IMG/VR virus record: IMGVR_UViG_3300032278_000119
Coordinates: 1 to 23,715 of that record
Source of the DNA: a virus
DNA: 23,715 nucleotides
Direction: 5' to 3' (one strand)
The notes under the pieces are model-generated. The model saw only the letters and a program-made list of their open reading frames with translations, had not been told where the DNA came from and ran no database searches. A program made the position numbers and the translations under genes. Positions 1 through 20,048 of this stretch are shown here, piece after piece (position 1 is the stretch's first letter; every line of letters starts with the position of its first letter).

Positions 1-3000
1 ACAGAATATACCTCTATACATCTAATTAGAGGCTTCACTTACTATTTTAATCAGTCTTCGGGAGGTAACAGCGGCCACCCCATGAATATATATACTTCGT
101 CTCAAGGCGGACAAACCCAAACGAAATATGACACCGACGGAAGTAAAGGCGTTACCATTCAAGGAGCGTTAGGAAACGTAAGTGATCCGAGGATATTGAT
201 ATTCAAAGTACCTTTTAACGCCCCAGATGACCTATGGTATGGCTGTGAAACTCATGATTATATGGGCGGCCCTATTACTGTTTCTGAGGTCGGCGCAGCA
301 GGACCTGAGGGAGAGAAAGGCGCACAAGGAACTCAGGGTGATCCCGGACCTCAGGGCGGCGTGGGCGATACTGGCCCCAAGGGGATTCAAGGCGTGCAAG
401 GTTTACCCGGCGGCCAAGGACCGCAAGGAGAGATTGGTATAGATTGGGATAGTGAATGGACAGATAGTGATTATACTCTCGGTTTGGGCGTATATTACGA
501 AGGAAGTTCTTATATATGTATAAAAGATACAACCAGCAAACAGCCGCCAACCGACGGCTCTTTCTGGTCTCTTCTGGCTAAGGAAGGAAACGTCGGTCAA
601 CTTGGCCCTATTGGTCCTGTCCCGTCACACGAATGGGGCGCTTCAAGCAACTTATACAAGCTTCGTTTTCAAGAAGCCTCTGGAAATTTCGGCAATTGGA
701 GCACTTCTCTAAGAGGGGAGCGGGGAGAACAAGGGGAAGCTGGTGTCGACGGGCCGTTCGGCGGAGATACTCAGTCCTTTGTCGTGGGCCCAGAAAATAC
801 AGTCAATACAATAAACGACGGACAACTTCAACTTAACGAATGGCGAGAACATCTTGTAACAAAAATTATAGTAAGTCATAAAAATTCCGACAACGTAGAT
901 TGTAAGCTCTGGCTTCGCTCCCTTGATGAAGTAAAAAATTCAAGAATTAAACTCATAAATAAAGAAGAGCCCGAATACTTTTGGGTTGGTGAGATTTCTG
1001 AAGACGCAGACGAAAGTAGCGAAGGTTTTATAATTTTCAATGTCAAATATATACATCACTATGGCCAATTTGATAAAGATAAAAAAATTGCATTAACTTT
1101 TGCTCCCGCCGGTAAGGGAACTCAGGGGCCCGCGGGACCCGCGCCCAAGCCGACGCCTACAGGAAAATTTACGGTTACCATCGCTAAACTGAATGACGTT
1201 AATGAGTTACATATAAATGAAACTGCAAACGCTGAACTAACTTTAGTCAAAGGGCACACCTATGAATTTAACCAAGAGCACGCATCAAACGGTACCCACC
1301 CAATAAAAATAGCAACCAAGGTTGATGGCGCTAGTGATAGCGAATACTCGACTGGTTGGGACTATTCTGGTTCTCCGGGTTCAACAGGCAAGGCGTTGTT
1401 TACCGTCCCCGCTGATATAAACGTTGATGTCTTATATTATTATTGCTCCTCACATACTGGTGAGGGAGGAGTAATTAACATAAAAAGCGCTAAAGGAGAA
1501 CCGGGTAACCCGGGCAATCAAGGGCCTGCGGGAAAGACCAGTAAATTTGAAGGTCAATCTAGTTCGATTTTAACAATTGATAACGGTCATACAGTTGTAA
1601 ATCACGGCGTAGCTTTGGAAGTTGGAAGTAGAGGACTTATTTCCCATTGGAAAATGGACGGCATATATGGTAATAATCTTATGCTGGACGAAAACGGAAA
1701 TCATCCCGCCACATTAAAGAATTTTGCGCCTCCTCATGGTATGACTGCCGGTAAGTTTGGTGGAGCCATACGGTTCGATGGCGTTAATGATTACGTCGAT
1801 TGCGGTATACATAACGACTGGTATTTCAAAAAAGACTTTACAATGGCGTTCTGGATCAAGAGGGAAAGAACTGGGCGTGAAGGAGTTATAGGTTTGGGCT
1901 GGGGTGATCCATCTGATGACTCTGTAGACGGTAACGATGTTGTAGGTTGCATCCAAATAATTTTCGATGACAACAATAAATTTAGGGTTCAAGTAGTTGG
2001 GATGGCCACCGGCAGCTCTGCCGGGCCGGTGATAAACACGTATAGTGACTCTGCTATAGCGGATACCGACTGGCATCATTATGTATATAGAAGAGAGGGC
2101 GACACATCTAATCTTTATGTCGATGGCGTAAAGCAAGCATCAGCCCCGACTGCCTCAATGCCCAATGGATTAAACAGCCCCAATAAGCCCCTCTCTATAG
2201 GTTGGGCCTCTGCGTCTCCGGGGAATCCGAATTATTTTAAAGGTTCCGTCGAGGATGTCCGGGTTTATAGAAGGGCTTTGGAGCAAAGCGAGATCAATCT
2301 TTTAAATGCTTCCGCAAATTCTTTACCGGTCAGCCTGATTAGTAGTGGGGCGTCGCCCAACGTAGAAGGCGCATTTATACCAACGGTCCACTTTGACATG
2401 GCAAGCATAAGTGGTACTACTTTAGTTGCAAAGCACGGACCAAATGCGGACCCCGTTAGCGGAACGCTCGTGGATGGCAAATTCGGAAAATCGTTAAAAC
2501 TTTCTGGGACTCAATGGGCTCATGTCTCTGCTGCAAATACGGCCGCAGTGTTCCAACCCGGAAATGCAGATTTTTCAATTTCTTTCTGGGCTAAAACTTC
2601 GAAGCTGTCCTCGGAAGCTACCGCTATGGCGTTCGGGTGGCGAAATGCGTCTGCGGGGGGCTATACTAAAGGCGTAGTATGTTTTATAGCAAAAAATGAG
2701 GTTGAGTTCGTTGTTGGTGGACAAACCGTAAAGAAAACCGTCGACACCGACGAAGGATGGAGACATTTTGCTGTCGTTAGGCAAGGTAATGGATCTAAGG
2801 TATTTATTAATGGTAAATTGTCGTTTACCCATGGCCACACCACTGCGTTTGGGGACCCGACGTATTCGCTGACGATAGGGCGTTCACCAACCGGCGGTGG
2901 GCAGCAGTACTTCGCCGGAGAAATAGACGAATTAAGAATATATAATAACCTCGCTCTTACTCCAGAGCACATAAAAGTATTGTCTAGCAGCGACACGGGC

Positions 3001-6000
3001 GACAAGGATTTAAAAGATCCGCAATGGGTAAAAAGGCTTAAAGCTCGCTGGACGATGGAGAACATTGTCGGCATGAGTGTTCAAGAAACTACCGAAGTCC
3101 ATCCCGGCACTGCAATGCTTCACGCAGCACAAGGATGGTCGGCATCGAAAAACACCGTAGAAGGAAGGTTTGGGCGGGCTTTAGCTTGGCCGAGCAGCCG
3201 TAAAGGCTACATCACTGTCGTTGCTCATGACGATTTTGTTTTTGATGGAGAATTTACTATGGCCGCATGGGTTAATAGCGACCTAGCAGGGAGAAATGGC
3301 GAAGGGAATGATATTTTCTCATCATTAAATTATTATACTGCAAATTATGATGGTAATTGGGTTTTTAGACTATTAGGCAAAGAATCTGCCGGCTATGAGA
3401 TGCAGGTATATAATGGAAAAACCACCGTCTTATATCAGAAAAGCCCGGATGCGGGAACATCGGGCACGGGGCCATTTAAAAAAGACGAATGGAATCATGT
3501 AGCTTTAACAAGAGACGCGGCAAATCTAATAAAATTTTGGTGCAACGGAGAAGTTTTTCACAGCTTTACTTACGCTGGGACGCTCGGTAAAACACCAGAT
3601 AATTTTTGCATCGGATCAAGAAATTATGAATTCAGCGGGAGCATGGACGAAGTTCGCATTTACGAAGCCGCAGCAAACACTAACGAGATAGCAGCCTTAA
3701 TGGAAAACAAGGAACTCATAGGGCCTGATAAATATATAATACCTAAAATAGGAGCCTCGGCCGCAAAGTTTAGTGGCAAAGGCAACGCCGCCCCTTATCC
3801 TAAGGTTGGATACCTCCAATGTCCTGAAGATGACGATTGGAAATTCGGCACGGAAGACTTTACTCTTGAGGCTTGGATTAAGCCCGGTTCCCTTCCGTCA
3901 AGTTTTGGAGGACTTTTTGCTGGTGGCGCGATGAATGGTTGGTCATTTTATCTGTACACAGATGGGCATTTGGGATGGAGCAATGCGATTGGCAACTCGG
4001 GTGGAATACGTTTTTATGGTGGTAAGGTCGTTGTGGGTGTGTGGCAACATGTCGCTGCAGTAAGGCATAATGGGACACTAACAATTTATATTGATGGTAA
4101 AAGTGTGGGCTCGCAGGTGCAAGGCCTCATGCAGAAAGCGCCTTTTAATTTGGCCATTGGCTCCCTTTATAGCACTGGCGGCAGCTCTAATCGGGATGCG
4201 CAGCACTTTTTTGAAGGCACGATGGATGGTGTTCGTGTCACAAGGTCCGCTGTTTATACCGCCGACTTTACACCTCCCGTTGGGAGATTTGGAAACGAAC
4301 CAAAAACAAAACTGTTATTGCACTTTGATGAAATTATAGATATGAGCGCTAATGCTCATCAGATAAGAAAGAGCCGAGATCTTGAGATCGTAGGCGGTAA
4401 ATTTGGCAAGGGGTGCGCCATCTTCAATGGGGAGACTTCTCATTTAACTGTTCCTGACCATCCAGATTGGGCCTTTGGTACTGGAGATTTTACCATAGAG
4501 GCTTGGATAAAAAGAGACGGACTTGTCTACGAGAAGAATTGGGGGACCCATATAATATCCGACTTTACTGCGGCCCATAAACATTGGCACTTAAGCATTG
4601 TTGGCGACGACCACCTTGCACGGTTTGGCGCGCTTCAAAGTGGAGCAGGGAAAGCTTGGAGCAATCTCAATGGAACTACCCCAATAACAGATTCGGAGTG
4701 GCATCATATTGCTGTGGTAAGACGAACCGGGCAAATAGCTCTATATGTAGATGGAATAAAAGAAGATTCAATAGCATTTCCCTATTTCGTGCAGTCGCCC
4801 AACCCGATAGCAATTGGAGTGTTGAACAAAGAAGGGGCCGTGGAGCATTTCAAGGGTTCAATTGACGAAGTGCGTATTTCTGACAAAGCGCGCTATACTA
4901 AAGACAAAGAAGATTTATTTAATAGCCAATTCGTACCGGATGGTAATACTAAATTGTTATTGCATTTCAATGATGCATTTAGGGACTTCGCTCCGTCAGA
5001 GGACCCAATAACCCAAACGGTGCACGGCACAAAAATAAAAGGCTCAGGAAAATGGCAAAATGGCGCTTTGGGTTCGGACAACGAGAAGTCTGCGCTTTGG
5101 TTGTATCGCAGTGGTTTCAGTAGCAGCGTAGAAACCCATATTCTTGACTATGGGGGAGACTGGACGGTAGAAGGTTGGTATAGGTGGGATGATAGTTTTG
5201 GCACCGGGGGCTTTGGCGGCGCGCAATGGGATACCCTTTTGGCAAGCTGTCCCCACACGGGCCAGCCGGCTCCGCCCGAAGGAATAACAGTTTGGGCGTC
5301 CCCGTATATGCAGCTCAGCAAGGGTCAAGAGGGCTCGAAGACTGCTCCGAGATTATTCTGGCGGCTTATAAAGCCAGATGAAAGCTATATTGCCCACGTG
5401 GGCACTTATCCGGAAAGCCAGATTGGGAAATCTATAGGTAGGGAGGTGATGGATTTAAATTCGTGGCACCATATTGTGTTCGAAAGAAAAGGTAATACTT
5501 ATAGAGCCTATGTTAATGGGGTTATAGACATGCAAGTAATAGACTCTAGCTCTATTTACCAGAATCCTGTTTTTCGAATTGGTGATGCCATAACTTCCGG
5601 AGTGCATGGTTTACAAAACGACATCAGACTGTCGGAGATAGCTAGGTATCATGATGGTGACGCTAACGCGGGAGACAAAGTCTTTGATCCCCCAGTCTCT
5701 GTCTTCTTAGATGACGATCAAGACGCCAAGCACTTGTGGCACTTCGATGAAAATTTTGAAAATACTGCTAACTTGGGAGATAGGCATGAGCCCGTTTCTA
5801 CTGAAACTAAAATAGAAAATGGTAGATTCGGTAGCTCTGCATTCTTTAGCAAGGGAAGCAGGGCTATAATCCCCAGTATACCAGAAGACCCAAACAGCAA
5901 CTGGCACCTTTCTGGTTTTAAAACTTTAGAGTTTTGGGCCAAGTTTGATGATGTCAACCCTAGCATGAAAATGGATATTATTTCAAATGAAGGAGATTCT

Positions 6001-6480
6001 GGCGCTTGGGATGCCAATGGATATGACTGGGTTATGTATATCCAAAAAGACCAAGCGGGAGTAAATCATTTGTATTATCAATATCATTCTGGCGCTTTGG
6101 GTAGTCCTCAGACTTTAAAAGTTAAAGCGTCAAGCGTGTTAACCGCAGACACTTGGCATCATATAGCAATTACAAATGACGGCTCCAAGGTAAAGCTTTG
6201 GATAGATGGAACAAACGAAGATGAATCAACCGGTATCCCTTCGGAAGAAAAACTAAATGGGTCTTTTAATCTTTATATCGGGGGCAGGTATTCGGTTGAT
6301 CCAAACTCAGCGACAGGACAAGGCCTGCTGTTTGAGGGTTATCTGGATGAAGTTCGTATATCTAACGCCGTAAGAGATATTCCTGCTAAAGACGCTTTCG
6401 TAGCTGATGACAGCACAATGTTATTGCTTAATATGGAAGATCTCCAAGGAGGGTTCGCAGACTTATCTAATTCAACTTAA
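1..6480 (+). CDS. Giant modular fibre/adhesin protein with cupredoxin-like, collagen-like and seven LamG domains (5' partial)
   Basis: The frame is open from base 1, so the gene starts upstream; the ATG at 82 is internal, because homology to a second domain copy begins before it. Of 2159 visible residues, 1-96 form a cupredoxin-like domain (H26, C82, H85, M88), 98-146 are Gly-X-Y collagen-like triplets, and 149-196 resemble the CBM5/12-type domain often found beside phage collagen repeats. Residues 250-370 are an unassigned beta-rich region. Residues 387-495 are a second cupredoxin-like domain (H433, C482, H485, but E488 for Met). Residues 543-2130 hold seven LamG-like (concanavalin A-like) domains, each with a W-[HRNQ]-H core followed by a [YFW]-[VIC]-[DN]-G turn and most ending in an E/D-[VL]-R strand. 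LamG folds bind glycans, so a virion fibre or decoration protein contacting cell-surface polysaccharide is likely. The last 20 residues resemble the first strand of an eighth LamG. Function as an adhesin is inferred; the domain assignments are fairly secure. Confidence 0.85.
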   Translation, partial: TEYTSIHLIRGFTYYFNQSSGGNSGHPMNIYTSSQGGQTQTKYDTDGSKGVTIQGALGNVSDPRILIFKVPFNAPDDLWYGCETHDYMGGPITVSEVGAAGPEGEKGAQGTQGDPGPQGGVGDTGPKGIQGVQGLPGGQGPQGEIGIDWDSEWTDSDYTLGLGVYYEGSSYICIKDTTSKQPPTDGSFWSLLAKEGNVGQLGPIGPVPSHEWGASSNLYKLRFQEASGNFGNWSTSLRGERGEQGEAGVDGPFGGDTQSFVVGPENTVNTINDGQLQLNEWREHLVTKIIVSHKNSDNVDCKLWLRSLDEVKNSRIKLINKEEPEYFWVGEISEDADESSEGFIIFNVKYIHHYGQFDKDKKIALTFAPAGKGTQGPAGPAPKPTPTGKFTVTIAKLNDVNELHINETANAELTLVKGHTYEFNQEHASNGTHPIKIATKVDGASDSEYSTGWDYSGSPGSTGKALFTVPADINVDVLYYYCSSHTGEGGVINIKSAKGEPGNPGNQGPAGKTSKFEGQSSSILTIDNGHTVVNHGVALEVGSRGLISHWKMDGIYGNNLMLDENGNHPATLKNFAPPHGMTAGKFGGAIRFDGVNDYVDCGIHNDWYFKKDFTMAFWIKRERTGREGVIGLGWGDPSDDSVDGNDVVGCIQIIFDDNNKFRVQVVGMATGSSAGPVINTYSDSAIADTDWHHYVYRREGDTSNLYVDGVKQASAPTASMPNGLNSPNKPLSIGWASASPGNPNYFKGSVEDVRVYRRALEQSEINLLNASANSLPVSLISSGASPNVEGAFIPTVHFDMASISGTTLVAKHGPNADPVSGTLVDGKFGKSLKLSGTQWAHVSAANTAAVFQPGNADFSISFWAKTSKLSSEATAMAFGWRNASAGGYTKGVVCFIAKNEVEFVVGGQTVKKTVDTDEGWRHFAVVRQGNGSKVFINGKLSFTHGHTTAFGDPTYSLTIGRSPTGGGQQYFAGEIDELRIYNNLALTPEHIKVLSSSDTGDKDLKDPQWVKRLKARWTMENIVGMSVQETTEVHPGTAMLHAAQGWSASKNTVEGRFGRALAWPSSRKGYITVVAHDDFVFDGEFTMAAWVNSDLAGRNGEGNDIFSSLNYYTANYDGNWVFRLLGKESAGYEMQVYNGKTTVLYQKSPDAGTSGTGPFKKDEWNHVALTRDAANLIKFWCNGEVFHSFTYAGTLGKTPDNFCIGSRNYEFSGSMDEVRIYEAAANTNEIAALMENKELIGPDKYIIPKIGASAAKFSGKGNAAPYPKVGYLQCPEDDDWKFGTEDFTLEAWIKPGSLPSSFGGLFAGGAMNGWSFYLYTDGHLGWSNAIGNSGGIRFYGGKVVVGVWQHVAAVRHNGTLTIYIDGKSVGSQVQGLMQKAPFNLAIGSLYSTGGSSNRDAQHFFEGTMDGVRVTRSAVYTADFTPPVGRFGNEPKTKLLLHFDEIIDMSANAHQIRKSRDLEIVGGKFGKGCAIFNGETSHLTVPDHPDWAFGTGDFTIEAWIKRDGLVYEKNWGTHIISDFTAAHKHWHLSIVGDDHLARFGALQSGAGKAWSNLNGTTPITDSEWHHIAVVRRTGQIALYVDGIKEDSIAFPYFVQSPNPIAIGVLNKEGAVEHFKGSIDEVRISDKARYTKDKEDLFNSQFVPDGNTKLLLHFNDAFRDFAPSEDPITQTVHGTKIKGSGKWQNGALGSDNEKSALWLYRSGFSSSVETHILDYGGDWTVEGWYRWDDSFGTGGFGGAQWDTLLASCPHTGQPAPPEGITVWASPYMQLSKGQEGSKTAPRLFWRLIKPDESYIAHVGTYPESQIGKSIGREVMDLNSWHHIVFERKGNTYRAYVNGVIDMQVIDSSSIYQNPVFRIGDAITSGVHGLQNDIRLSEIARYHDGDANAGDKVFDPPVSVFLDDDQDAKHLWHFDENFENTANLGDRHEPVSTETKIENGRFGSSAFFSKGSRAIIPSIPEDPNSNWHLSGFKTLEFWAKFDDVNPSMKMDIISNEGDSGAWDANGYDWVMYIQKDQAGVNHLYYQYHSGALGSPQTLKVKASSVLTADTWHHIAITNDGSKVKLWIDGTNEDESTGIPSEEKLNGSFNLYIGGRYSVDPNSATGQGLLFEGYLDEVRISNAVRDIPAKDAFVADDSTMLLLNMEDLQGGFADLSNST

Positions 6481-6485: not shown

Positions 6486-8924
6486 ATGGCTAATAGAAAA
6501 CAAATAAAAGTAGATAAAGGCTTATCGTTTAAACCGGGACAGCAAATTATATTGTCTAATCGGGGTGCAGACGGTGATAAAGCGGCCGTTATTCATGGTA
6601 AAATTAATAATTATGATGATGGGTTTGGCGTACTAGACTTTGATCAAACATCTAGCGAGGGGGCTGGAACGTTTGGTGACGGCACGTCTTGGGACGTTGC
6701 TTTGAGTGGCGGTGAAGGGATAGAAGGGCCAGCGGGATCACAGGGAGTTCAGGGAGCAGTGGGGCCTCCGGGAGAGCAGGGGCCTCAGGGGCTGGCAGGT
6801 ATCGCTGGTGCTGGCGGACAAATAGAGAGAAGTGTCATAATTAACAATGGGGAGTTAAATATGGATGGGGATGACGCTGACCCGAACGAACCAAAATTTT
6901 TCATCAAGGGGACGAAAAATGTTCTTACTATGAGTGATGATTCTACCGCCGGGGGAACAATATATTTTTCGACAGATATAGCTGGAGGCGAACCTTATAC
7001 GGAGGGATATAGTGACAATGCTGCCGATGGAGGGATTGCGGGCGACGCAGATAACCCTTTAATAATTTCTTTCACTGCGCCGTTATCAAATAACACGCCA
7101 AGCGATATATATATGCATTCGAACTTGGGTAATGGCGTTCCCCAAAGAATTAAACTTTCAGATACTGGCCCAGCCGGACCAATAGGGCTACAGGGCGAAA
7201 CCGGTGACGAAGGCCCTGCTGGCGCTCCGGGAGCCGATGGAGGGAAAGGAGAAGCGGGGGATAGAGGGAGTGATGGACCCAAAGGCCCTGCTGGAGAGCG
7301 GGGCGAACCGGGAGTTACTGGGGTGGGATCTACGGTGATAGTGTCAGGATCGGGAGAATTTGTTCTTGGGTTAAATACGACAAGACAAGCATTCAGCGTC
7401 TTAAACCCTTCTCTCAGTATTGAAAAAACGGGCAGCATTTCCAAAACAGAACTGAACGAAATCGGAGCTTTCTTTGCTGAGCCTACTAATTTTTATTTGA
7501 ATCTTCTTATAGAAAATAATAACACCTCTTCTTCAGAATGGGTCGTTGCAGAGCTTTATAAAAATAATGAACCTACAAACATATCAACTACTATTACTAA
7601 AGATACCCCGGTAGGTATCCGCACTTTAAAAAAGGCTGATTCTGTCTCATCCGGGCACCCCGTCTCTATTGTAGGTAGCCCCTCCTTGGTTTCTCCATCC
7701 GCTCTTGGGGATTCCAGCGTAAGCCTTAATGGCTCACAGAGCTTAATAGTCGATCAGGATGTGTTTCATTGGATTTTTGACAAAGAAGACTTTACCGTGG
7801 AAGGGAGATTTAGTTTTGACAGTGATGGGCTTGCCGTATCGGGAAGTGGTCAAACTTTATTTAGTAATAACGATTGGGGAGTAAAATACATATCCGCTTC
7901 TACTAACGAAAGCCGCACGCACGAATATTTTCATTCCGGCGAAGGAACAAGCGACACGCCTATTATTTCTCACGTGGTAAAAAATACTGGCGACGTTTCT
8001 GTATCTGTAAAAGCCAGCAGCAGTACCCCTCTTAACGACGTAAATATAGAAATTAAAATTTATGTAAACGGAATACTTAATACTTCCTATGAGGCATCAA
8101 ACACAGACATACACTCATCTCCCGTAGAATTAGAAAACACTATTTTAACCGGCTTGGTGTCAGGTAATGTCATATCTTATACCTGTAATCAAACAAACGC
8201 ATTGGTTCTAGATACGGTTGTGACAGAGAGCATGCTGTCTTCAAGGCTTGAAGTGTTTTATGTCCAAAACGGGACAGTAAATACTTTGTCGGCAGATTGG
8301 TCACCGGCCGCAGACATCTTCTACCATATCGCTATGATTAGAATGGTGGATTCTGATGGCTCAAGCCCTGTTTCTAAATTAAATCTTCACGTAGATGGAA
8401 GCAGAGTCATTAATGAAACTATTCCGGGCGATACTAAGATTGGCGGTTTTTCAAATAACAGTTTATTTATTGGGAGCCATCCTTCTCCAAGCGGCGCGAC
8501 CCAAAGCGACTTTTTTGAAGGAAATATAGACGAAATAAGAGTGCTTAAGGACATAGCAGAGTGGACAGTAGATAATTTTTCCGTCCCTACGGAGCCATAC
8601 ACATCAAATAGTTATACTAAACTTTTGTTACATATGGAAGGTGCTGTCGGATCGAGTGTATTTACTGATGAAGCCTCTGGTTCTGATTCGTCTACGATCG
8701 CTGTAGCTGCGGGCGATAAACTAGCGGTAGTTTTTACTTCTAGCAACGTAAAAAAGCCAAACGGCATTGTCACCCTAAGGTTTGCTGGCGTAGTAAGCGT
8801 GGTTGGAAAACAAGGCAAGAGGGGGATGCAGGGTCTCGCCGGACCAACAGGAACACGAGGAAAGGAATCCTCAGGGAACATGACCGCTGCCGACGTAATA
8901 AAGTGGTCTATAGCGTTTGGTTAA
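6486..8924 (+). CDS. Collagen-like/LamG fibre or decoration protein
   Basis: This 812-residue protein starts five bases after the preceding stop and has no evident Shine-Dalgarno sequence, which suggests translational coupling. Residues 1-74 are a small beta domain with a G-Q-x-I pattern often seen in front of phage collagen repeats. Collagen-like Gly-X-Y stretches lie at about 75-110, 228-283 and 774-794. Residues 135-228 match the cupredoxin-like domains of the upstream gene in outline but lack the copper ligands. A LamG-like domain spans about 400-705, with its Y-H-I-A-M-I-R core near 612 and an E-I-R strand near 680; it is interrupted at about 470-590 by a beta-rich insertion. A lone LamG first-strand motif (K-L-L-L-H-M-E) follows near 711. 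It is probably a trimeric fibre partner of the upstream protein. Head or tail location cannot be told from the sequence. Confidence 0.82.
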   Translation: MANRKQIKVDKGLSFKPGQQIILSNRGADGDKAAVIHGKINNYDDGFGVLDFDQTSSEGAGTFGDGTSWDVALSGGEGIEGPAGSQGVQGAVGPPGEQGPQGLAGIAGAGGQIERSVIINNGELNMDGDDADPNEPKFFIKGTKNVLTMSDDSTAGGTIYFSTDIAGGEPYTEGYSDNAADGGIAGDADNPLIISFTAPLSNNTPSDIYMHSNLGNGVPQRIKLSDTGPAGPIGLQGETGDEGPAGAPGADGGKGEAGDRGSDGPKGPAGERGEPGVTGVGSTVIVSGSGEFVLGLNTTRQAFSVLNPSLSIEKTGSISKTELNEIGAFFAEPTNFYLNLLIENNNTSSSEWVVAELYKNNEPTNISTTITKDTPVGIRTLKKADSVSSGHPVSIVGSPSLVSPSALGDSSVSLNGSQSLIVDQDVFHWIFDKEDFTVEGRFSFDSDGLAVSGSGQTLFSNNDWGVKYISASTNESRTHEYFHSGEGTSDTPIISHVVKNTGDVSVSVKASSSTPLNDVNIEIKIYVNGILNTSYEASNTDIHSSPVELENTILTGLVSGNVISYTCNQTNALVLDTVVTESMLSSRLEVFYVQNGTVNTLSADWSPAADIFYHIAMIRMVDSDGSSPVSKLNLHVDGSRVINETIPGDTKIGGFSNNSLFIGSHPSPSGATQSDFFEGNIDEIRVLKDIAEWTVDNFSVPTEPYTSNSYTKLLLHMEGAVGSSVFTDEASGSDSSTIAVAAGDKLAVVFTSSNVKKPNGIVTLRFAGVVSVVGKQGKRGMQGLAGPTGTRGKESSGNMTAADVIKWSIAFG

Positions 8925-9298: not shown

Positions 9299-9544
9299 AT
9301 GTCTAGATTCATTAAACAAGTCGAAGAAGATTGTGTCGGCGTTTCTGGCCCAATAGGTCCTGTCGGTCCTCCCGGAGCAAATGGGAGTGACGGTATAGAT
9401 GGCGCTCAAGGTGATGCGGGTCCCACGGGTCCCACGGGGCCAACGGGTGCTGACGGAGCAAAAGGAGACGCGGGAGGCCTCGGACCGCAGGGTCCAATTG
9501 GGATAGCGGCAATCACAGTATTAGAACTACAAATATTTACTTAA
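9299..9544 (+). CDS. Stand-alone collagen-like stalk peptide
   Basis: An 81-residue protein. A 15-residue head containing one Cys (C12) is followed by about 17 Gly-X-Y triplets (residues about 17-67, including G-P-T repeated three times) and a hydrophobic C-terminal tail of about 13 residues (A-A-I-T-V-L-E-L-Q-I-F-T). Phage collagen-like segments form trimeric rods, so this could be a free-standing trimeric linker or stalk whose ends dock onto other virion proteins. No Shine-Dalgarno sequence is visible; it starts ten bases after the preceding stop. The reverse strand is also open here because of the skewed composition, but that frame has no gene-like features. The coding call is secure; the role is inferred. 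Confidence 0.78.
   Translation: MSRFIKQVEEDCVGVSGPIGPVGPPGANGSDGIDGAQGDAGPTGPTGPTGADGAKGDAGGLGPQGPIGIAAITVLELQIFT
9419..9445 (+). repeat. Nine-base tandem repeat in a collagen-like coding region
   Basis: Two perfect copies of GGTCCCACG are followed by a degenerate third copy, GGGCCAACG, each encoding Gly-Pro-Thr. A nine-base unit preserves the frame, so copy-number change would lengthen or shorten the collagen rod. Confidence 0.8.
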
Positions 9545-9941: not shown

Positions 9942-12900
9942 ATGAGGAACGTTAAACAGCAGAGATCTTTAAAGTTTAGGCCCAAAACGAGGGAAAGAGT
10001 ATGCAGAAATGCTATTTTGCCCGTGGTGTCTAACATGAAAGAGAGTGCTCAGCCCGAATCTAGCGGCTTCGATCCTGAAGTAACCGAGTGGGTGTCTAGG
10101 GTTCATGATAACAGTGGATCAATAAATGAGGCAACCATACACGCGGTTAATTCATGGATGCTTGCCATTAAGTCTTCAAATGGATTAAGAGAAAAATTAA
10201 AACGAGTAAATCTTTTTGCTGGAAACGATTTGTTTTCTGCTTTAGTTCCGATAATTAAAGATCATGGTAATAGCATAGATCAAAATAACGGTTTTGCGCT
10301 TAGCGACTACTCACCTTCTGGCAAAGAAGCCGGCTTAAAAGATAGAGGCGTCGTGTCTGGCACATACAAACATTTAGATACCGGGCTAGTCTTGGGTTCG
10401 GCTGGATTGACAAACATTAACGGACACCTTGCAATAAATACGATGGGCGCATATGAAAGAACTAGCTGGGTTCCTTTCCTTGGGGCGGCGGGTAGAGAAG
10501 GCTTTAGCGGCACTTCGTCTACTAGGATGGGGCAGATGGTCTCTGGATTGAAATCGAGAAGGTCTACTTTTGGCTGGGCAGATAATAGCGCTTCGGCATA
10601 TCATACTAACACTAAGTATTATAATCCCGCGATGGGTTTTTACTTAGGCAACGCAAAAACAAACCGCATTTCTTTGTGGTATAATGGAGTAGAGCTCGGT
10701 TATAATGAAACCATTTCCACTTCATCCCATTTGCCGTCAGGATCCGTCTATCTATTCAGAGTAAACAATTCAGATAATATGCTTAATAGGGCTTTCAGGA
10801 AGTCGGTTAATTATTATTCTATTGGCTCCTCCCTTACCGATGACGAAGTAAACGTTTTGACCTCTGCTCTTAACGCCCTGAACAAAACTTTAGGAAGAGA
10901 ATATTATGCGGCCGAAACCAGTGAGGCGTGGGAATGGGCTAACATAAAAACTGTTGAAAAAATTGGTGACCCTTACCTTTACATGGATCAAGCCGTTGTT
11001 GCTGCCGCAGACGAATTCATCAAAAAAATTGATCCAATTAAATCTAAACTAACTAGACTTAATTTATTTTTAGCTAAGGACAGTAGTTATTACGCTTACC
11101 AAGCGGCTTTAGTACCCATCATTTCAAAAGTGGGCGGCAGATATGATGCGTCGTATAATTTCGTGGCTGATAATTATGAGAAAGAAGGATTAAAAGGAGA
11201 CGGTTTTTCTAAATACTTAGAATTAAATATTAACCCTTCGGAAGACTTGCTACAAAATAATTTACATTTTTCTGTGAAAACTGAAACAGTGGCTAGTAAA
11301 TTAGACACCACTTTAATGGGCTGCTCTGGTTCTTCTGCGGGACATAGTGCTTATTTAAACGTGGGCGCCGAAGTGGTTTCCGCCAATTTGGGCATGGGCG
11401 GGGAGGTGCGTTCTTTGCTGTCTTCCGCCGAGAGCAAGGGCCTTATGACCATTTCCGTGTTAAATCAAAACTCCTCTTCTCTTTATGTCGGAGGAACCAA
11501 AAAGGCAGAAAAGGTATCTAAAAATAGCGGCTTATTGCCAGACGTTTCTAGGCTCTCTCTCTTCGCAAGGTATGACCAATCATTGAACAAGAGGATTAAA
11601 CATTCAGACCAAAGAATTTCTTTTTATTCTCTTGGCAAAGGCTTGACTGCTTCCGAAGTCCTTTCTCTGAGCAAGGCCTTAGAAACAAACGACGACAATA
11701 AAACGGTATTTAGCGCTCAGAATGAGGAAGTCTGGGATTGGGCTAATGTCAGAGTGCCTTCTAATGGGGGGATCCTTAGACGGAGAGACGTAGATGCCGT
11801 CGATGCGTGGGTAACTGAAATTAAAAATACTGCTGGTTTGTGGGAAAAATTAGATAGAGCAAATCTGTTTGCGGGACAAGATCTAGCGGCCAAAACTGTA
11901 CCCATAATTAATTCCATGGGACATAAAGTAGATAAAATTTATAATTTTAATTCCTTTAGTGCTGCTTCGCACTTAGGTCTAAAAGGCTCTCTTGGGGGGC
12001 ACCTAGATACGGGCGCCAAAATATCAGATATTATAACAGATGAAAGCGGTCATTTCTCGATAAAAAACTATGCTAATTTTGATTCGATAGGGTCAAGGAC
12101 TTTTGCTCATGGCGTAGAAGGCGGGGGAAGTAAGCCTAGATACTCCATAGATTTTAATTCGGACTCTGTATCGGCTTATGTTTGGGGACACGACGCATTA
12201 AATTATTCTACTAGTGTGGGCGGGATAGAATCCGTGATGTATTCACCAATGTCCCTTCCATATTTGACATCTGATTTCGCTATTTCTTCGACTGCCTCGC
12301 AAGCTTGGGTTACTGACGAAGTGTTCTCATATACGGCTGAGAACAGTGGGATGCATAAAATAAATTTTGAAGGATTCATAACGAAAGGCAAATGGGGTCT
12401 GATTTGGAGAGTTCTTAAAAACGACGAAGTAATATTAACCGGAGATCACAGTACGGGAGCTTCGGGCCCAGAAACGGTAGCTAATGACGGCACTCCGTGT
12501 TCTGAGTTGCTAGGCTCAAACGTTAACCTGCCGGCGCTTCACTGCCCAAGAGACTACGGCATCGTAATTCCTGACCTTTCAGCAGGAGACAAAATCGAAA
12601 TCCAATGGGCTGGGGGAGTAGCAGGAGGCTCTACTGGAGATAACACCTCAGGCGGAGGAATGTCCACGGGTAATCAGCCTGCCGTTGGTTTATACAATAG
12701 CCCTTGGTGGGTTAAGCAATCCCCATATGATTCAGACCAAGAAATACACATTAGAGAATTCAAAATTTATTCTGTGCAGGGGGGGGATTCCTCAGTAAAG
12801 GGATTGTGGACCGCTAATAGAACCACTTCTAATTCTGCTGCGCTTTACTTAGACAAAGTAGCGAAAGCTACCTCTTCTAATGCCGTAGACCCCGAGATAG

Positions 12901-15900
12901 TTACTAGCAACGACATGATTCATATCATGACAAAGTATCCCGACTTTCATCTAAATTCTCATGACAATTCTGCTAGGATGGGTTACTACACCATGGGGGC
13001 AGGCCTGAGTCCGGATGAAGTGGCAGCTGTGAGCGACGCCCTTTCTAATTTAGATTTAAAACTGAAAAGGAACATAGACGAAGAGGTCTATGATTGGGCC
13101 TATACGAGAGTACCCAAAAACGGAGGCACTCTTACTGAAGATTCAATTAATTGCGTTAATGACTGGATGAACACTATCAAGGCCGAGGGCATTAGGCCTT
13201 TCATTAAAAGATTTAATCCTTTTGTGGGGGACGACACAACCCAAAGCGATATAGGAAAAGTGTTCGCCCTTAAGGCCGCAATGGTGCCTCTCATAACGGA
13301 AGAGCTCGGTCATGATGTAGATAAAAGCTTCGGATTTACTTACAAAGATTTTATCCAAGGAATTTATTCTGATGGGTCGACGGACAAGTTTATTGATACG
13401 GGCTTGAAGCCAAGTTCTATGCCCGGAATCGATGCCGATTTGTCTTATGTGGTTAATTTTTTAGAGCCCCCTATTTCAGTTAATAGAAACATCGTATTAG
13501 GTGACGGGGTATTAAATCTGTCTTTTAAAACAGACGATATTTCCTTTGGTTCTAGCGAAACCTGTTTGGCGCATGACGACAACCCGATAGTTAACTCTTC
13601 CGTAGGCTGGTCTTCTAAAGCGTACTTGTATCCTTATGGTATCACGGCTGCCGGAGCGTTGACTTCTGGTGGGCAAGTCATGCTTTCTTTTGTAAAGGAT
13701 CATCAAGGGACAGAAATACAAGATGGGGCAAGGGCCGCTACTTACGCTGGTCCAATTTGCAACCCGGGTCTATCTGATCACCCCATAACAATTTTTGGTA
13801 AAACTAAGCCAGACGGAGGGGGTCTGGGGCAATATGAAGGCAGAATAGCTTCTTATCTGGTCGGAGTTGGATCTTTAGACGCGACGAAGAATACGAAATT
13901 GGCCGCGGCCTTAGGGACGCTTAACAAGAGTTTACGTAGGGGTAGGTTCATATCGAACGATAACGAGGTTTGGGATTGGGCACATGATAAGGTCTTAGAT
14001 TTAAATAATGGCAAGCTTTCTTCAAGAGTAGTAGACTCTGTAGATAAATTCATGACATCCATAAAAGCAGCCGGGATAAGAAATGACATAAAAAGGATGA
14101 ATTTGTTTTGTGGGTTAGATCTAAAAGCCGCTTTAGTCCCTCTAATAGCAGACAGCGGCCCGAACGTAGACTATGTGGCTAATTTTGTAGAAAGCGATTA
14201 CTCTCCCATGGGTAGCGGCGCAGGATTAACCAATACTGGGGTGGGTGGGAAATATCTGAACACCCTTACTCCGATCAGCTCTCTTTTGGGGGACGGGGAC
14301 CACCATATGGCGATAAAATTAATTGGCAGTCATTCCGACGATTTGGAAACCTCGATTGGTCCAAATTTGATTGCGGGTGGAGGAGATCAATTTGGAGTCA
14401 AGTTCAGAGGGTTTGGCTCTAGATACAGGGACACCTCGTTCTTTATTGGTAACGATACATATCAAAGCGTAGAGACTTTTAGGCCTACTTTAAACTGCCA
14501 ATACGACGCCACAAAATATTACGCATGTAATATCCCTTCCTTGATAACAAATGTAATACCTCCCCCAAATCAAACTTTAGCCTTCTATCTAAATAATCTA
14601 TATAGCTGCAGAGGATACAATTACATTAACCCTGCTGATGTCAACATGATTATTTCTCAAGGCAGTATAGACGGACTCGTTTCAGACTGGCTGCAAAGAA
14701 CTGGTCGAGGTTTAGGAGCCTCAGATACTGTATTCGATTTTATAAATAGAACCGATTGGAAAAATCAGGGCTTGAATGTCTTTTACAATGCCAATTACAA
14801 AAATAGATTTTGCTCTACTTCGATGTCTTCAATTTTACAGAACAGCATGAATGGCATCATAAGCTTAAGTCTCGGCACAGACGACATAACCAAAGGTGGC
14901 GGACTATACTCCTTGTCGACTACGAACGGTGGAAAAACGGCGAATTTGCACCACGATGGGGGCTTGAAGCTAAGATATACTTTGTCAGAACTTACTGCTG
15001 CTTCCGGAGAGAACTTGTCCTTGTTTGGTTTTTCTATGAATAATATCGTATCTGCTTATACCAAACAGATAACTATGTCATTCTATTCTGCAGGTAACAC
15101 GGGATCGTTTAAGCCGGACATTATGAACGATGCGCTAGGCACCTTAGATAAGGACCTCGGAAGAAACCAGCATGTCGTAGCGGGCGCCGTGGGCGCCTTT
15201 GACGAGGAGGTCAACGAGTGGGCAAACGAAAAAGTCCCCAATAACGGAGGAATGCTTACTGGTTCCCAAGTGGAGGCCGTTAATGAATTTATGTTGTCAA
15301 TAAAATCCGTTTCGGGATTAAGGAATAAAATTTCTAGATGTAATTTGTTTATAGGGCAAAATATAGATGCCGCGCTTGTGCCATTGATTTCTGACGCCGG
15401 GGGACCGATAGACTTAAGCCACGGATTTACGAATTCTGATTTTAGCGTAGGTGGACCCGGGTCTTTCCCCGGAATAAGTTCTGGCAGCCCAGAAACCAAT
15501 GACGGGAATTGGTCTGCTTTGCAAGCAACGAAGTGGATAGATACGGCTTTGTTTCCTGACAGCAAGAGCAAATTGGTGGATAACGCTGGCCATATAATGA
15601 TGAGTCTTCCTGACATTTCTAAAGTCTTATCAACGGGGACAAGCATACCCCTCTCTATTATCCCCGCAACATCGGATACGGGCACGAAAGGAACGACCCG
15701 TGTTATGATTACTGACAACGGAATTTCTACTTCTATCTTTGGAAACATTAGTACCACCTCTACTGATGCTGCAAGTACATCGTTTGACAGTACAGAAACG
15801 CGTAATGCGGTTGCCGGAGGACTTATCGCCATAACTAAAAGTCCGACTACCGGTGCCTCAAGTATATACGTGCAAAATCCATCCGTAGAAGGCGCAAACA

Positions 15901-16169
15901 TAAGCATGAACGAGAGAGCTTCTAAGGAAGTTCCTGCTCTCGTCGCTCAAAAATCGTCCTTAAAATTGTTCGCGTGGGCCTATGGCAATAGCAATTATAT
16001 TAAAAAGGGTTATTTGGGCACGATGTCTTTCTACTGTGTGGGGGATTTTTTAAGCGTAGAAGAAGCAAGCGTCATAAATGACGCTTTTAAGGCGCTGCAA
16101 GTTAAACTCGCTAAAGCGAATTACTCCGTTTCCGGAAACGTTATGTCTCCGATAAATTGGTTTTATTAA
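9942..16169 (+). CDS. Giant six-module adhesin/fibre protein
   Basis: This 2075-residue protein has a short basic N-terminus (1-45) and then six homologous modules starting near residues 46, 327, 595, 1047, 1341 and 1754. Each module opens with a helical segment with an E-V-W-D-W-A pattern, a conserved N-L-F-x-G-x-[DN] motif and A-A-L-V-P-[LI]-I. A D-[YF]-S region and a K-Y-L-D-T-G-like strand follow, then a beta-sandwich of the concanavalin A-like sort seen in phage fibres. The usual close is an F-Y-S-x-G-x-G-L-T helix ending near L-x-R. Modules 3 and 5 are longer, with extra segments near residues 776-950 and 1520-1625. No catalytic motif, signal peptide or membrane segment is visible. There is no Shine-Dalgarno sequence before the ATG. 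A long receptor-binding or decoration fibre with repeated lectin units is the best reading; glycan binding is inferred. Confidence 0.8.
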   Translation: MRNVKQQRSLKFRPKTRERVCRNAILPVVSNMKESAQPESSGFDPEVTEWVSRVHDNSGSINEATIHAVNSWMLAIKSSNGLREKLKRVNLFAGNDLFSALVPIIKDHGNSIDQNNGFALSDYSPSGKEAGLKDRGVVSGTYKHLDTGLVLGSAGLTNINGHLAINTMGAYERTSWVPFLGAAGREGFSGTSSTRMGQMVSGLKSRRSTFGWADNSASAYHTNTKYYNPAMGFYLGNAKTNRISLWYNGVELGYNETISTSSHLPSGSVYLFRVNNSDNMLNRAFRKSVNYYSIGSSLTDDEVNVLTSALNALNKTLGREYYAAETSEAWEWANIKTVEKIGDPYLYMDQAVVAAADEFIKKIDPIKSKLTRLNLFLAKDSSYYAYQAALVPIISKVGGRYDASYNFVADNYEKEGLKGDGFSKYLELNINPSEDLLQNNLHFSVKTETVASKLDTTLMGCSGSSAGHSAYLNVGAEVVSANLGMGGEVRSLLSSAESKGLMTISVLNQNSSSLYVGGTKKAEKVSKNSGLLPDVSRLSLFARYDQSLNKRIKHSDQRISFYSLGKGLTASEVLSLSKALETNDDNKTVFSAQNEEVWDWANVRVPSNGGILRRRDVDAVDAWVTEIKNTAGLWEKLDRANLFAGQDLAAKTVPIINSMGHKVDKIYNFNSFSAASHLGLKGSLGGHLDTGAKISDIITDESGHFSIKNYANFDSIGSRTFAHGVEGGGSKPRYSIDFNSDSVSAYVWGHDALNYSTSVGGIESVMYSPMSLPYLTSDFAISSTASQAWVTDEVFSYTAENSGMHKINFEGFITKGKWGLIWRVLKNDEVILTGDHSTGASGPETVANDGTPCSELLGSNVNLPALHCPRDYGIVIPDLSAGDKIEIQWAGGVAGGSTGDNTSGGGMSTGNQPAVGLYNSPWWVKQSPYDSDQEIHIREFKIYSVQGGDSSVKGLWTANRTTSNSAALYLDKVAKATSSNAVDPEIVTSNDMIHIMTKYPDFHLNSHDNSARMGYYTMGAGLSPDEVAAVSDALSNLDLKLKRNIDEEVYDWAYTRVPKNGGTLTEDSINCVNDWMNTIKAEGIRPFIKRFNPFVGDDTTQSDIGKVFALKAAMVPLITEELGHDVDKSFGFTYKDFIQGIYSDGSTDKFIDTGLKPSSMPGIDADLSYVVNFLEPPISVNRNIVLGDGVLNLSFKTDDISFGSSETCLAHDDNPIVNSSVGWSSKAYLYPYGITAAGALTSGGQVMLSFVKDHQGTEIQDGARAATYAGPICNPGLSDHPITIFGKTKPDGGGLGQYEGRIASYLVGVGSLDATKNTKLAAALGTLNKSLRRGRFISNDNEVWDWAHDKVLDLNNGKLSSRVVDSVDKFMTSIKAAGIRNDIKRMNLFCGLDLKAALVPLIADSGPNVDYVANFVESDYSPMGSGAGLTNTGVGGKYLNTLTPISSLLGDGDHHMAIKLIGSHSDDLETSIGPNLIAGGGDQFGVKFRGFGSRYRDTSFFIGNDTYQSVETFRPTLNCQYDATKYYACNIPSLITNVIPPPNQTLAFYLNNLYSCRGYNYINPADVNMIISQGSIDGLVSDWLQRTGRGLGASDTVFDFINRTDWKNQGLNVFYNANYKNRFCSTSMSSILQNSMNGIISLSLGTDDITKGGGLYSLSTTNGGKTANLHHDGGLKLRYTLSELTAASGENLSLFGFSMNNIVSAYTKQITMSFYSAGNTGSFKPDIMNDALGTLDKDLGRNQHVVAGAVGAFDEEVNEWANEKVPNNGGMLTGSQVEAVNEFMLSIKSVSGLRNKISRCNLFIGQNIDAALVPLISDAGGPIDLSHGFTNSDFSVGGPGSFPGISSGSPETNDGNWSALQATKWIDTALFPDSKSKLVDNAGHIMMSLPDISKVLSTGTSIPLSIIPATSDTGTKGTTRVMITDNGISTSIFGNISTTSTDAASTSFDSTETRNAVAGGLIAITKSPTTGASSIYVQNPSVEGANISMNERASKEVPALVAQKSSLKLFAWAYGNSNYIKKGYLGTMSFYCVGDFLSVEEASVINDAFKALQVKLAKANYSVSGNVMSPINWFY

Positions 16170-16448: not shown

Positions 16449-17531
16449 ATGAAAACTATTTGCGCTGCTTTAATTGTAAAAAATGAAAGCAAAATCATAC
16501 GTAGGTGCTTGGAAAGCATAAAGCCCCACATAGATTATTGGGTTATTTGTGATACGGGTTCCACAGACGACACGAAAGAAATTATTTTAGAGGAACTCTC
16601 TGATTTACCCGGCGAACTCCATGAAACGCCTTGGTCTAACTTCGGGCAAAACCGCTCTGTGCTGATGGCTCTAGCCAAGGGGAAGGCTGATTATCTACTC
16701 CTTTTAGATGCGGACATGGTTTTAAAGGTCCATGCAGAAAACTTTAAAAATGACCTGACTGCAGATTCTCATTTTGTGAGAAACGAAGGACCCTTGGACT
16801 ATTCCGAGAAAAGGATCGTAAAAGGAAGTCTGGATTGGCATTACGAAGGGGTGACCCACGAGCATATACATTCGGAAGAAGAAAAGAACGTCGGGGTTTG
16901 CTATTCTGTCTCTTTCCTCCATTTTTGTGACGGAGCGAGAAGACCAAAAAAATTCCTTGATGATATTAAACTGTTAGAAAAGGGGTTAGAGGATGAGCCG
17001 GACAACTCTAGATATAAATTTTATCTGGCACAATCTTATTACGACACGGGAGACTACGCCTCAGCAATCAAGTGGTACGAAGAAAGGATAGAAGACGGTG
17101 GTTGGGAGGAGGAGGTATATTATTCTTTTCTAAGGAGGGCGACTTGCTTGTCTTACGAACTGAAAGAATTCCCCGTGGATGCTTTTGTACAAGCTTACAA
17201 TTACAGGCCCCAAAGACTAGAGGCCATATATGAAATAATCAAATTCTATAGAGAAGAAAAAATGTATAACTTCGCTTATGGTCTAGCTAAAGAAGCTATA
17301 AAAAAACCATATCCAAAAGGAGACATTTTGTTCATAGATAGAGAAATAAGCGAATACAAGCTCGAAGACGAATTGTCTATATGCTCTTATTGGGTGGGAA
17401 ACTATGAAGAAAGTCGTGAATTATTTCAAAAACTGTTAGAAAAAGAGACAGTTCCAGAAAAAGAAAAAGAGAGAATCAAAAAGAATCTACAATTTGCCCT
17501 TGATAAGATTAATCAACAGTGTAATATGTAA
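16449..17531 (+). CDS. GT2-family glycosyltransferase with TPR-like C-terminus
   Basis: A 360-residue protein. Residues 1-180 are a GT-A fold of glycosyltransferase family 2: K-N-E at 11-13, the nucleotide-sugar motif C-D-T-G-S-T-D-D-T at 34-42, P-W-S-N-F-G-Q-N-R at 61-69 and the metal-binding D-A-D at 87-89. Residues about 190-345 are helical pairs resembling tetratricopeptide repeats (for example Y-K-F-Y-L-A-Q-S-Y-Y-D-T-G-D-Y), a combination known in bacterial and viral GT2 proteins, where the repeats may bind a protein acceptor. No membrane segment is seen, so it acts in the cytoplasm. It probably transfers a sugar from a nucleotide-sugar donor; donor and acceptor are unknown. It lies between fibre and neck genes and ends five bases before the connector gene, pointing to late expression and a virion or fibre acceptor. 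DNA or host-envelope modification are alternatives. Confidence 0.88.
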   Translation: MKTICAALIVKNESKIIRRCLESIKPHIDYWVICDTGSTDDTKEIILEELSDLPGELHETPWSNFGQNRSVLMALAKGKADYLLLLDADMVLKVHAENFKNDLTADSHFVRNEGPLDYSEKRIVKGSLDWHYEGVTHEHIHSEEEKNVGVCYSVSFLHFCDGARRPKKFLDDIKLLEKGLEDEPDNSRYKFYLAQSYYDTGDYASAIKWYEERIEDGGWEEEVYYSFLRRATCLSYELKEFPVDAFVQAYNYRPQRLEAIYEIIKFYREEKMYNFAYGLAKEAIKKPYPKGDILFIDREISEYKLEDELSICSYWVGNYEESRELFQKLLEKETVPEKEKERIKKNLQFALDKINQQCNM

Positions 17532-17536: not shown

Positions 17537-18040
17537 ATGAAGGTTGTCGATATAGCTGATGAAATTTACAGAGAGCTGGGTAGCCCAAGCGATTTGAACA
17601 TTCCTGTTTTAACTTTTTGGATTAGAGCTAACATGGGGGCGTTAAATAGTCATATTCATGAAGAATATTTCATAAATACAGACTTGGAAATCGTTAAAAC
17701 TGAGGGCGACTCAGATCATGAGGTAGGAGAAGAAGAAAAAGCCATCATGAAAAAAATGTACATGGTCTATCACTACAACAATCTAGTAAGGAACACGATG
17801 GGCGCGGCCAGCCTTGACACCGTAATCGAAATTGAGTCAGACGATACGCGCGTAAAAAAAATCAACAAAAATGAGCAAAGTAAGACTTACGCTTCTCTTA
17901 AGAGGCAAGAATATCAAGAGCTGATGGATCTTATTTCTGCTTATAAAATTACCAAGTCTTCTCCTTCTCAGGTTGCCGGAGACGACACCATCGCTGGCGC
18001 AACTGGTTCGTATAAAGAAAGCAACCGAGCTAACCAATAG
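17537..18040 (+). CDS. Putative head-tail connector (adaptor) protein
   Basis: A 167-residue, mainly helical protein. The N-terminus reads A-D-E-I-Y-R-E-L-G-S-P, followed by a hydrophobic F-W-I-R-A-N-M-G segment. The middle has E-E-E-K-A-I-M-K-K-M-Y, Y-N-N-L-V-R and V-K-K-I-N-K-N-E-Q-S-K-T-Y. The end is flexible and polar. Size, helical character and position ahead of three other neck-size genes fit the HK97 gp6/SPP1 gp15 class of adaptors that bind the portal ring. It starts five bases after the glycosyltransferase stop with only a weak GAG upstream. I rely on context and pattern rather than a diagnostic motif, so the name is tentative. Confidence 0.6.
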   Translation: MKVVDIADEIYRELGSPSDLNIPVLTFWIRANMGALNSHIHEEYFINTDLEIVKTEGDSDHEVGEEEKAIMKKMYMVYHYNNLVRNTMGAASLDTVIEIESDDTRVKKINKNEQSKTYASLKRQEYQELMDLISAYKITKSSPSQVAGDDTIAGATGSYKESNRANQ

Positions 18041-18051
18041 GGACACAAAGA

Positions 18052-18501
18052 ATGGCAGACCTACTAAGTCAGACAGATAAAGATTTTTTTATTAGCGTGT
18101 TAGGAGACATATTCGACACGTTTAAGCGCGATATAGTCATTCACAAAGAGCCCAAAAAGAAAATAATAAATCCTGCTATAGAGCTATATGCTGGATACGC
18201 AGAATCTTCTGCCCCCGCAAATATAGAATATATTCCTGAAAGCAAAACTTTTCCGGGGCTGGTAAGTTATTTGGACAGCATAGGTCAACAGTCAGACAAG
18301 CGAGTTGGCGACATAAATTTAGACGTACGCAGGGGCAAGGTAAGAATAAAAGTCCTTGAAGACGCCAAAGAATATATAATGAAAGGAACCACCGAAAAAG
18401 TGCTGTTAGACGGTAAAGCTTTCAATGTCATCACTTATGATACCGTAAAGTACTTTTTTGGGATGAAGTGGTATGTGTTTTACTTAGAACAAACAATGTA
18501 A
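18052..18501 (+). CDS. Putative head-closure (stopper) protein
   Basis: A 149-residue protein with a helical N-terminus (F-I-S-V-L-G-D-I-F-D-T-F) and a beta-rich body rich in charged residues (D-I-V-I-H-K-E-P-K-K-K, I-N-L-D-V-R-R-G-K-V-R-I-K-V). Its size and place directly after the adaptor candidate match stopper proteins of siphovirus necks, which are small beta-barrels closing the portal channel. AGGGAC lies about ten bases upstream of the start. There is no decisive motif; any other neck component remains possible. Confidence 0.5.
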   Translation: MADLLSQTDKDFFISVLGDIFDTFKRDIVIHKEPKKKIINPAIELYAGYAESSAPANIEYIPESKTFPGLVSYLDSIGQQSDKRVGDINLDVRRGKVRIKVLEDAKEYIMKGTTEKVLLDGKAFNVITYDTVKYFFGMKWYVFYLEQTM

Positions 18502-18502
18502 T

Positions 18503-19105
18503 ATGGCTATTCGATATAACAAAATGCAGTTTTTGAAAGAAGTTTCTAAGGCAATGGACTCGGCAGAAGTAAGAAGAAGGATGCGCGAAAGCGCAGAAAA
18601 CGAGTTCCAGCAAAGAAAAAAGAAGCTTCTATCAGACTTTATTGGCCATCCTGTAACTCAGGAAATATTGTCTGGCCCGAACTCTGATAACTATAGCGGC
18701 ACCTTAACGGGCAGGGGTAATTTATTTACGTTCATCGGATTTTCGGAAAGCTCAGACCCGATCAACCCCCTGTATCAATACTTGAATCGATCTATAAGAA
18801 TGCTAAAAAACCCTCATGTGATCAAGCAAAAATATGGTGCGACATACACGTTCAAATGCTATACGCCCGACGAAAGAGACCTAGTTAAAGTAGCTCCGAT
18901 GCCTTGGGAAAGAGGCAGAAGTTGGGCGACGGGTATATCTAGAGGAATTTCTGGTTTAAGCTATTATATATACAAGGCTACTGAAGGAGCGAGGTCAGGG
19001 GGAGGTGTACAAACCAGCACTCCTTACATCGCCGGGCTAATGTTTAGAAGGCAGCCATACCTATTGGGTATGTTTTCTAAACTTAAAGCGGGAGTAAAGA
19101 TATAA
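18503..19105 (+). CDS. Putative tail-completion or neck protein (HK97 gp10-like position)
   Basis: A 200-residue basic protein. A strongly charged helix at about 10-45 (V-R-R-R-M-R-E-S, Q-Q-R-K-K-K-L-L) is followed by a G-R-G-N-L-F-T-F-I-G-F strand and a conserved-looking P-M-P-W-E-R-G-R-S-W-A-T-G-I segment near 132-146. It starts one base after the previous stop and ends immediately before the next ATG, so translation is coupled within the neck operon. HK97 gp10-like tail-completion proteins occupy this slot in siphoviruses. The assignment rests on gene order and general features. Confidence 0.5.
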   Translation: MAIRYNKMQFLKEVSKAMDSAEVRRRMRESAENEFQQRKKKLLSDFIGHPVTQEILSGPNSDNYSGTLTGRGNLFTFIGFSESSDPINPLYQYLNRSIRMLKNPHVIKQKYGATYTFKCYTPDERDLVKVAPMPWERGRSWATGISRGISGLSYYIYKATEGARSGGGVQTSTPYIAGLMFRRQPYLLGMFSKLKAGVKI

Positions 19106-20040: not shown

Positions 20041-20048
20041 CTTTTTCG

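Follow-up and report, generated by a model that had tools for sequence, protein, structure and literature searches.

The N-terminal part of a truncated fibre-type protein encoded on an IMG/VR virus record is predicted to be a cupredoxin with an intact type-1 copper site (residues 5–94), in which His26 would be provided by one loop and Cys82, His85 and Met88 by the loop that joins the last two strands. It probably belongs to a large, hitherto unannotated family whose members occur in aquatic phages, within baseplate-wedge connectors and collagen-like or LamG fibres, as well as in marine bacteria, where they are parts of secreted or surface proteins. Judged from sequence, the most likely role of the module is that of a head that binds copper and is carried by collagen-like fibres and baseplate connectors. 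We give this explanation as a whole, a type-1 cupredoxin module acting as a copper-loaded stabilising or contact head on tail parts, a probability of about 0.6.

The window, by which we mean the whole stretch of DNA that was analysed (23,715 bases), is the entire record. Its frame 1 is open from base 1 for 2159 residues and contains no start codon before residue 28, which indicates that the 5' end of the gene is missing. The features on which the argument rests are the following.

1–6480, + strand: 5'-truncated fibre-type ORF of 2159 aa, with cupredoxin module 1, collagen-like stretches, cupredoxin module 2 and seven LamG-type (concanavalin A-like) domains
13–282, + strand: cupredoxin module 1 (residues 5–94), without its first strand; PHROG 677, E = 4e-15
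76–78, + strand: His26, predicted N-terminal copper ligand (GHP motif); family conservation 97%
244–246, + strand: Cys82, predicted thiolate copper ligand; family conservation 97%
253–255, + strand: His85, predicted second histidine copper ligand; family conservation 97%
262–264, + strand: Met88, predicted axial copper ligand; family conservation 97%
292–438, + strand: collagen-like Gly-X-Y stretch directly after module 1; best PF01391 stretch at residues 98–146
1186–1482, + strand: cupredoxin module 2 (residues 396–494), complete, H-C-H-E; E = 3.4e-9 to module 1
1297–1299, + strand: His433, first ligand of module 2, from the translation
1444–1464, + strand: CSSHTGE, that is Cys482, His485 and Glu488 of module 2, from the translation

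In frame 1, positions 1–285 translate as ...NSGHPMNI...LWYGCETHDYMGGPITV, and the first domain of the 2159-residue protein reads TEYTSIHLIRGFTYYF...NSGHPMNI...LWYGCETHDYMGGPITVS. The translation places the four ligands at the very codons that a previous, sequence-only reading had assigned to them (His, 76–78; Cys, 244–246; His, 253–255; Met, 262–264), and the C-x2-H-x2-M spacing that it had likened to amicyanin is an exact match in module 1. Its equation of positions 1–285 with the domain stands as far as the presence of the ligands is concerned, but the window begins inside the domain and the cupredoxin is therefore truncated. Homologues carry about 20 extra N-terminal residues that include the first strand, which module 1 lacks because the contig starts within the domain. 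The same reading had called the protein virion-type, a label that is well founded, though unproved for its own virus, since the ORF contains LamG and collagen domains in Pfam (Laminin_G_3, E = 3.5e-126, seven stretches; Collagen, E = 2.8e-6), matches tail-fibre, baseplate and virion structural families in PHROGs, and is followed at 6486–8924 by a gene for a second collagen-like fibre protein.

Further genes lie in the remainder of the window. An 81-residue protein that is almost purely collagen-like lies between fibre genes (9299–9544), and a 2075-residue protein without a Pfam match (9942–16169) appears by eye to consist of about six repeats of about 350 residues, which have the motifs 'VNLFAGxDL..ALVPII...G..VD...F' and 'EV.DWA..VP.NGG' in common. 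A family-2 glycosyltransferase with TPR repeats is encoded within the structural gene cluster (16449–17531). The structural genes at 17537–23693 belong to a phage lineage that is nearly absent from databases; a search of 50,697 phage records gave no match for two of their proteins, and for one protein IMG/VR yields 11 relatives, among them a record of 136 kb.

The principal evidence that the ligand motif is genuine is its conservation across the family. A single-sequence search of viral contigs with module 1 returned eleven contigs. A first wide alignment contained no stretch conserved enough for scanning, so a narrower alignment was used; the fetching patterns were HPF[WY]IK[TN] and L[IVS]R..TY.F. 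The family alignment search yielded at least 577 viral stretches, from which 79 loci were retained, as well as 50 loci of bacteria or archaea, and an iterated HMM found 181 domain copies in these viral and bacterial contigs, 145 of them distinct at a length of at least 60 residues. Among the 145 distinct domains each of the four ligand columns (H, C, H and M) is 97% conserved, and the complete H-C-H-M set is present in 135. Since the fetching patterns do not contain the Cys, His85 or Met columns, search bias is confined to the first His and the Pro that follows it. Within the 2159-residue ORF the C-x2-H-x2-M motif occurs once, and when the ORF is shuffled with its composition preserved, only 0.5% of the shuffles contain any C..H..M arrangement. 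The family conservation is stronger evidence against a chance motif than these shuffle statistics, and the motif in module 1 is not a chance motif.

Structure prediction leads to a cupredoxin fold once a complete copy is used. Modelled alone, the truncated module 1 of the window reached a pLDDT of 74, with residues 49–60 below 50, and a Foldseek search with this model listed immunoglobulin folds first, mixed with cupredoxins and none better than E = 0.01. A complete homologue (L016:5001–5312, 45% identical to module 1) was predicted with a pLDDT of 96.4 and a pTM of 0.88 and has eight strands. Its first ligand lies just before strand 44–46 and its Cys right after strand 82–86, and the loop preceding strand 94–100 carries the His and Met, a placement as in cupredoxins. 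The 50 best PDB matches listed for this model are all either cupredoxins or copper proteins made up of several cupredoxin domains (rusticyanin, AcoP, NirK, plastocyanin, laccase/CueO and similar; probability 0.99–1.00, best E = 3.7e-5). The outcome named in the sequence-only reading as fatal to it, a fold other than a cupredoxin sandwich, thus did not occur in the homologue. The order of the Foldseek list obtained with the truncated copy speaks for a chance arrangement of the four residues in a fibre domain of immunoglobulin type, and family-wide conservation, the profile matches described below and the fold of the complete homologue speak against it; we consider this reading extremely improbable and have rejected both the chance motif and the immunoglobulin domain on these grounds. 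The module fold is also matched by three BFVD entries, A0A481Z6J5, A0A481YVH3 and A0A481Z7Q7 (E = 2e-8 to 2e-7, 21–31% identity), which are 'beta-sandwich proteins' of Pithovirus- or Marseillevirus-like giant viruses.

Module 1 alone gave nothing significant in single-sequence searches of Pfam or the PDB and falls below every Pfam cut-off, and neither module 1 nor module 2 matched PF00127 at E ≤ 10 (cut-off 21.2 bits). The 92-row family profile, searched against PDB sequences, gave 51 matches, nearly all of them plastocyanins, auracyanins, azurins, amicyanins, pseudoazurins, copper nitrite reductases and copper oxidases, the few others being ribosomal L23 and glutamyl-tRNA synthetases. The best E-values were 1.5e-4 and 6e-4, with plastocyanin at 0.0085; no single match is overwhelming, and it is the composition of the match list that points to cupredoxins. 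Aligned by hhalign to a profile of 12 cellular cupredoxins, collected through PF00127 and TIGR02657 searches of family-carrying genomes, the family profile scored a probability of 97% (E = 9e-11), and the four ligands fell in the same columns. A reversed-profile control gave 0.1% probability, and 59 of 60 column-shuffled controls scored 17 or less against 58 for the real profile; the remaining shuffle, which scored 137 over four columns, was set aside as an end-gap artefact. Two bacterial relatives exceed the PF00127 Copper-bind cut-off of 21.2 bits (L134, 32.4; L131, 25.0), one bacterial relative passes PF25489 (At5g54830-like domain), and in a Prochlorococcus genome a PF00127 match above the cut-off lies at the position of a family member (L144). 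By fold, ligand order and profile homology, the module belongs to the cupredoxin superfamily. The earlier proposal of a cupredoxin-type domain with a full type-1 ligand set is thus borne out by ligand conservation, profile searches, the fold of the homologue and the fibre context.

The family also has exceptions. The Cys has been lost in five copies, every one of which also lacks His85 (5/5; Fisher p = 2e-9), and a tree made with the ligand columns left out requires at least four changes to account for the ligand losses; the copies that lost Cys and His85 keep the family fold residues. In one bacterial copy Gln takes the place of Met, a swap of the stellacyanin type. Only one Cys is present in 127 of the 135 complete domains, which rules out a disulphide or a two-Cys zinc site for most of them. 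The sequence-only reading had noted one copper-type domain; module 1 is confirmed, and a second copy is present in the same protein at 1186–1482. This module 2 is a paralogue of module 1 (34% identity) that keeps H, C and H and has Glu at the axial Met position. Searched alone, it gives a weak alignment (E = 0.35) that covers most of its length and pairs its Cys and His with those of cyanobacterial plastocyanin, and a search of viral contigs with module 2 found no relatives of it. Since module 2 without its Met and a few copies without Cys and His have been retained, copper cannot be essential in every copy.

These exceptions bear on the view that the cupredoxin fold serves purely as a binding or structural domain, its ligands being leftovers or holding another metal such as zinc, and that copper has no role in the virion. 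The H-C-H-E set of module 2 and the five related copies that keep the fold without Cys and His are in line with it, as is the fact that synthesis in the cytoplasm would expose a metal site to zinc first. We nevertheless regard it as unlikely, because retention of each ligand, Met included, at 97% across very divergent sequences and the all-or-none loss of Cys and His are hard to reconcile with a leftover, and Met is a poor ligand for zinc.

With respect to known cupredoxins, the module resembles those of PF00127 (plastocyanin, azurin, amicyanin and pseudoazurin) and the NirK-type domains in its ligand order, with the last three ligands on the loop before the final strand, in predicted fold and in profile homology, and some bacterial members pass PF00127 itself. 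Unlike them, it is built into phage fibre and baseplate proteins, and the first His is followed in the family by Pro-Phe and not by Asn, the usual residue in plastocyanin, azurin and amicyanin; Pro occupies this position in module 1 of the window and in 141 of 145 relatives. Amicyanin is among the PDB profile matches of the family and the fold matches of module 1, whereas the module has neither the Asn after the His nor a methylamine dehydrogenase context. Amicyanin proper was therefore rejected, with Pro instead of Asn after the first His and TIGR02657 not reached: module 1 had no match to this model at E ≤ 10 (cut-off 110.2 bits), and only one relative matched it, at E = 0.04. The type-1 domain of multicopper oxidases (laccase, CueO) is likewise among the fold matches, and its type-1 His lies in an HPxH motif that resembles the His-Pro-Phe found at the first ligand in most relatives; in contrast to these enzymes, the module is a single domain with a much shorter Cys-His-Met loop and has no HxH trinuclear-copper motifs, none being present in the sequence of module 1.

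Within phages, the closest described entity is PHROG 677, the baseplate wedge tail fiber protein connector of T4-like cyanophages, whose C-terminal part (positions 333–410) is matched by module 1 and whose entry makes no mention of copper; in the window, by contrast, the carrier is a giant collagen/LamG fibre protein, and the phage lineage is unrelated. Cyanophage plastocyanin, the product of the auxiliary gene petE, is also a phage-borne cupredoxin; rather than forming part of a virion protein, it is a separate soluble electron carrier of host type that is produced inside the infected cell. The petE gene is listed in PMC3037559. Metal ligands in phage tail fibres have a parallel in the iron-binding HxH motifs of a marine phage fibre, proposed as bait (PMC11705849), which differ in binding iron through histidines on the trimer axis and in having no cupredoxin fold, Cys or Met.

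The module was found in 321 annotated phage records (E ≤ 1e-5, one query), nearly all of them Synechococcus or Prochlorococcus phages, and its carriers there are mostly named 'baseplate wedge tail fiber connector'. In T4-like cyanophages it forms the C-terminal domain of a baseplate wedge protein of about 400–500 residues. Eight isolate records have one to four copies each; the main copies in isolated cyanophages are H-C-H-M in 14 of 14 cases, and the weaker extra copies in adjoining giant fibre genes mostly keep this set. P-SSM2 (AY939844.2) has four module copies in three open frames, two of them in a putative proximal tail fibre. In Synechococcus phage S-SZBM1 the module lies at the C-terminus of SSZBM1_206 (also written S-SZBM1_206), a protein that was detected by mass spectrometry in CsCl-purified virions (51.38 kDa, 498 aa, 24.9% coverage and a value of 9 in the column that we take to give peptides; PMC9146016).

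Carriers on viral contigs are distinguished by their collagen-like context, with such stretches in 70 of 95 viral carrier ORFs against 0 of 51 bacterial ones. Collagen lies on both sides of 53 of 113 viral copies and follows 54 of 113, compared with 29% for positions drawn at random from these ORFs. On the bacterial side, the carriers comprise short proteins whose starts by eye resemble signal peptides or lipoproteins, larger surface proteins, and a two-copy protein of about 430 residues in PS1/OCS116 alphaproteobacteria. In this PS1/OCS116/Rhodobiaceae protein (loci L095–L109, L117 and L120) the two modules follow an N-terminal region reminiscent of RTX-type repeats. The domain tree requires at least nine switches between phage and cell labels, and relatives of the window's virus have the module in only 1 of 11 records, where it lies in a different gene context (several of these records are fragments). 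Both observations suggest that the module is a transferable add-on rather than a core part.

The same distribution can be set against the idea that the site is a working redox centre, a type-1 copper in the fibre that, at contact, passes electrons to or from reactive oxygen or proteins of the host surface or periplasm. The axial Met is kept in 97% of the domains, as in electron-transfer cupredoxins, and among the PDB matches listed the closest folds are electron carriers (rusticyanin, AcoP and plastocyanin). However, carriers occur on phages of different hosts and the module is embedded in collagen-like fibres, with 53 of 113 copies flanked on both sides. No partner protein was found, the window contains no redox gene, and among the loci checked no copper or electron-transport gene lies beside the bacterial single-domain carriers. 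A redox function for the fibre is, in our estimation, decidedly unlikely.

Our preferred mechanism is instead that copper acts as a stabilising and contact element and not as an electron shuttle. Each copy would bind one copper ion. Free copper is scarce in the cytoplasm, the site of virion protein synthesis, and the ion is therefore probably acquired once the virion is outside the cell. Among the cellular neighbours checked, none ties the family to copper metabolism, which weighs against a copper role in general. The copper-loaded module may then form a rigid head on a trimeric fibre and serve in host attachment or in assembly of the fibre or baseplate; this, together with the stabilising role itself, is the least certain part of the proposal. 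With similarly low certainty, a collagen-like trimer would present three copper-loaded heads.

Alternatively, the site could function as a copper Trojan horse, recognised by host receptors for copper or metallophore uptake and used for landing. The iron-binding HxH motifs of the marine phage fibre provide a precedent (PMC11705849), and the module sits in parts that contact the host or connect to the host-contact organelle; against this, evidence for a receptor is lacking, the hosts are diverse, and in gp9/gp10-like proteins the module is located at the connector and not obviously at a tip. We judge recognition by such receptors to be very improbable.

A copper-loaded stabilising or contact head would make new use of familiar components: the fold and the site are known, and what appears undescribed is that phage tail parts employ them as a repeated module. 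In the open literature we found no report of a cupredoxin joined with a virion or a tail fibre, subscription papers, preprints and InterPro superfamily models lying outside the scope of this search; some databases may already flag the fold.

The same unannotated domain is present in the tail parts of hundreds of aquatic bacterial viruses, and many phage particles may accordingly carry copper. A far-reaching and doubtful extension would be that the virions of hundreds of aquatic phages, common cultured cyanophages included, are copper proteins with several type-1 centres each on their baseplate connectors and fibres, that attachment or infectivity depends on copper acquired after lysis, and that infection is sensitive to the copper of the water. 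The copper site is open to direct test in existing cyanophage isolates, for example syn9, S-RIM2 and P-SSM2. A conserved blue-copper site in the tails of abundant aquatic phages would be a virion metal cofactor that annotation has missed, would add copper to a discussion of metals in phage tails that has so far concerned only iron and, if true, would tie phage infection to the copper chemistry of the water.
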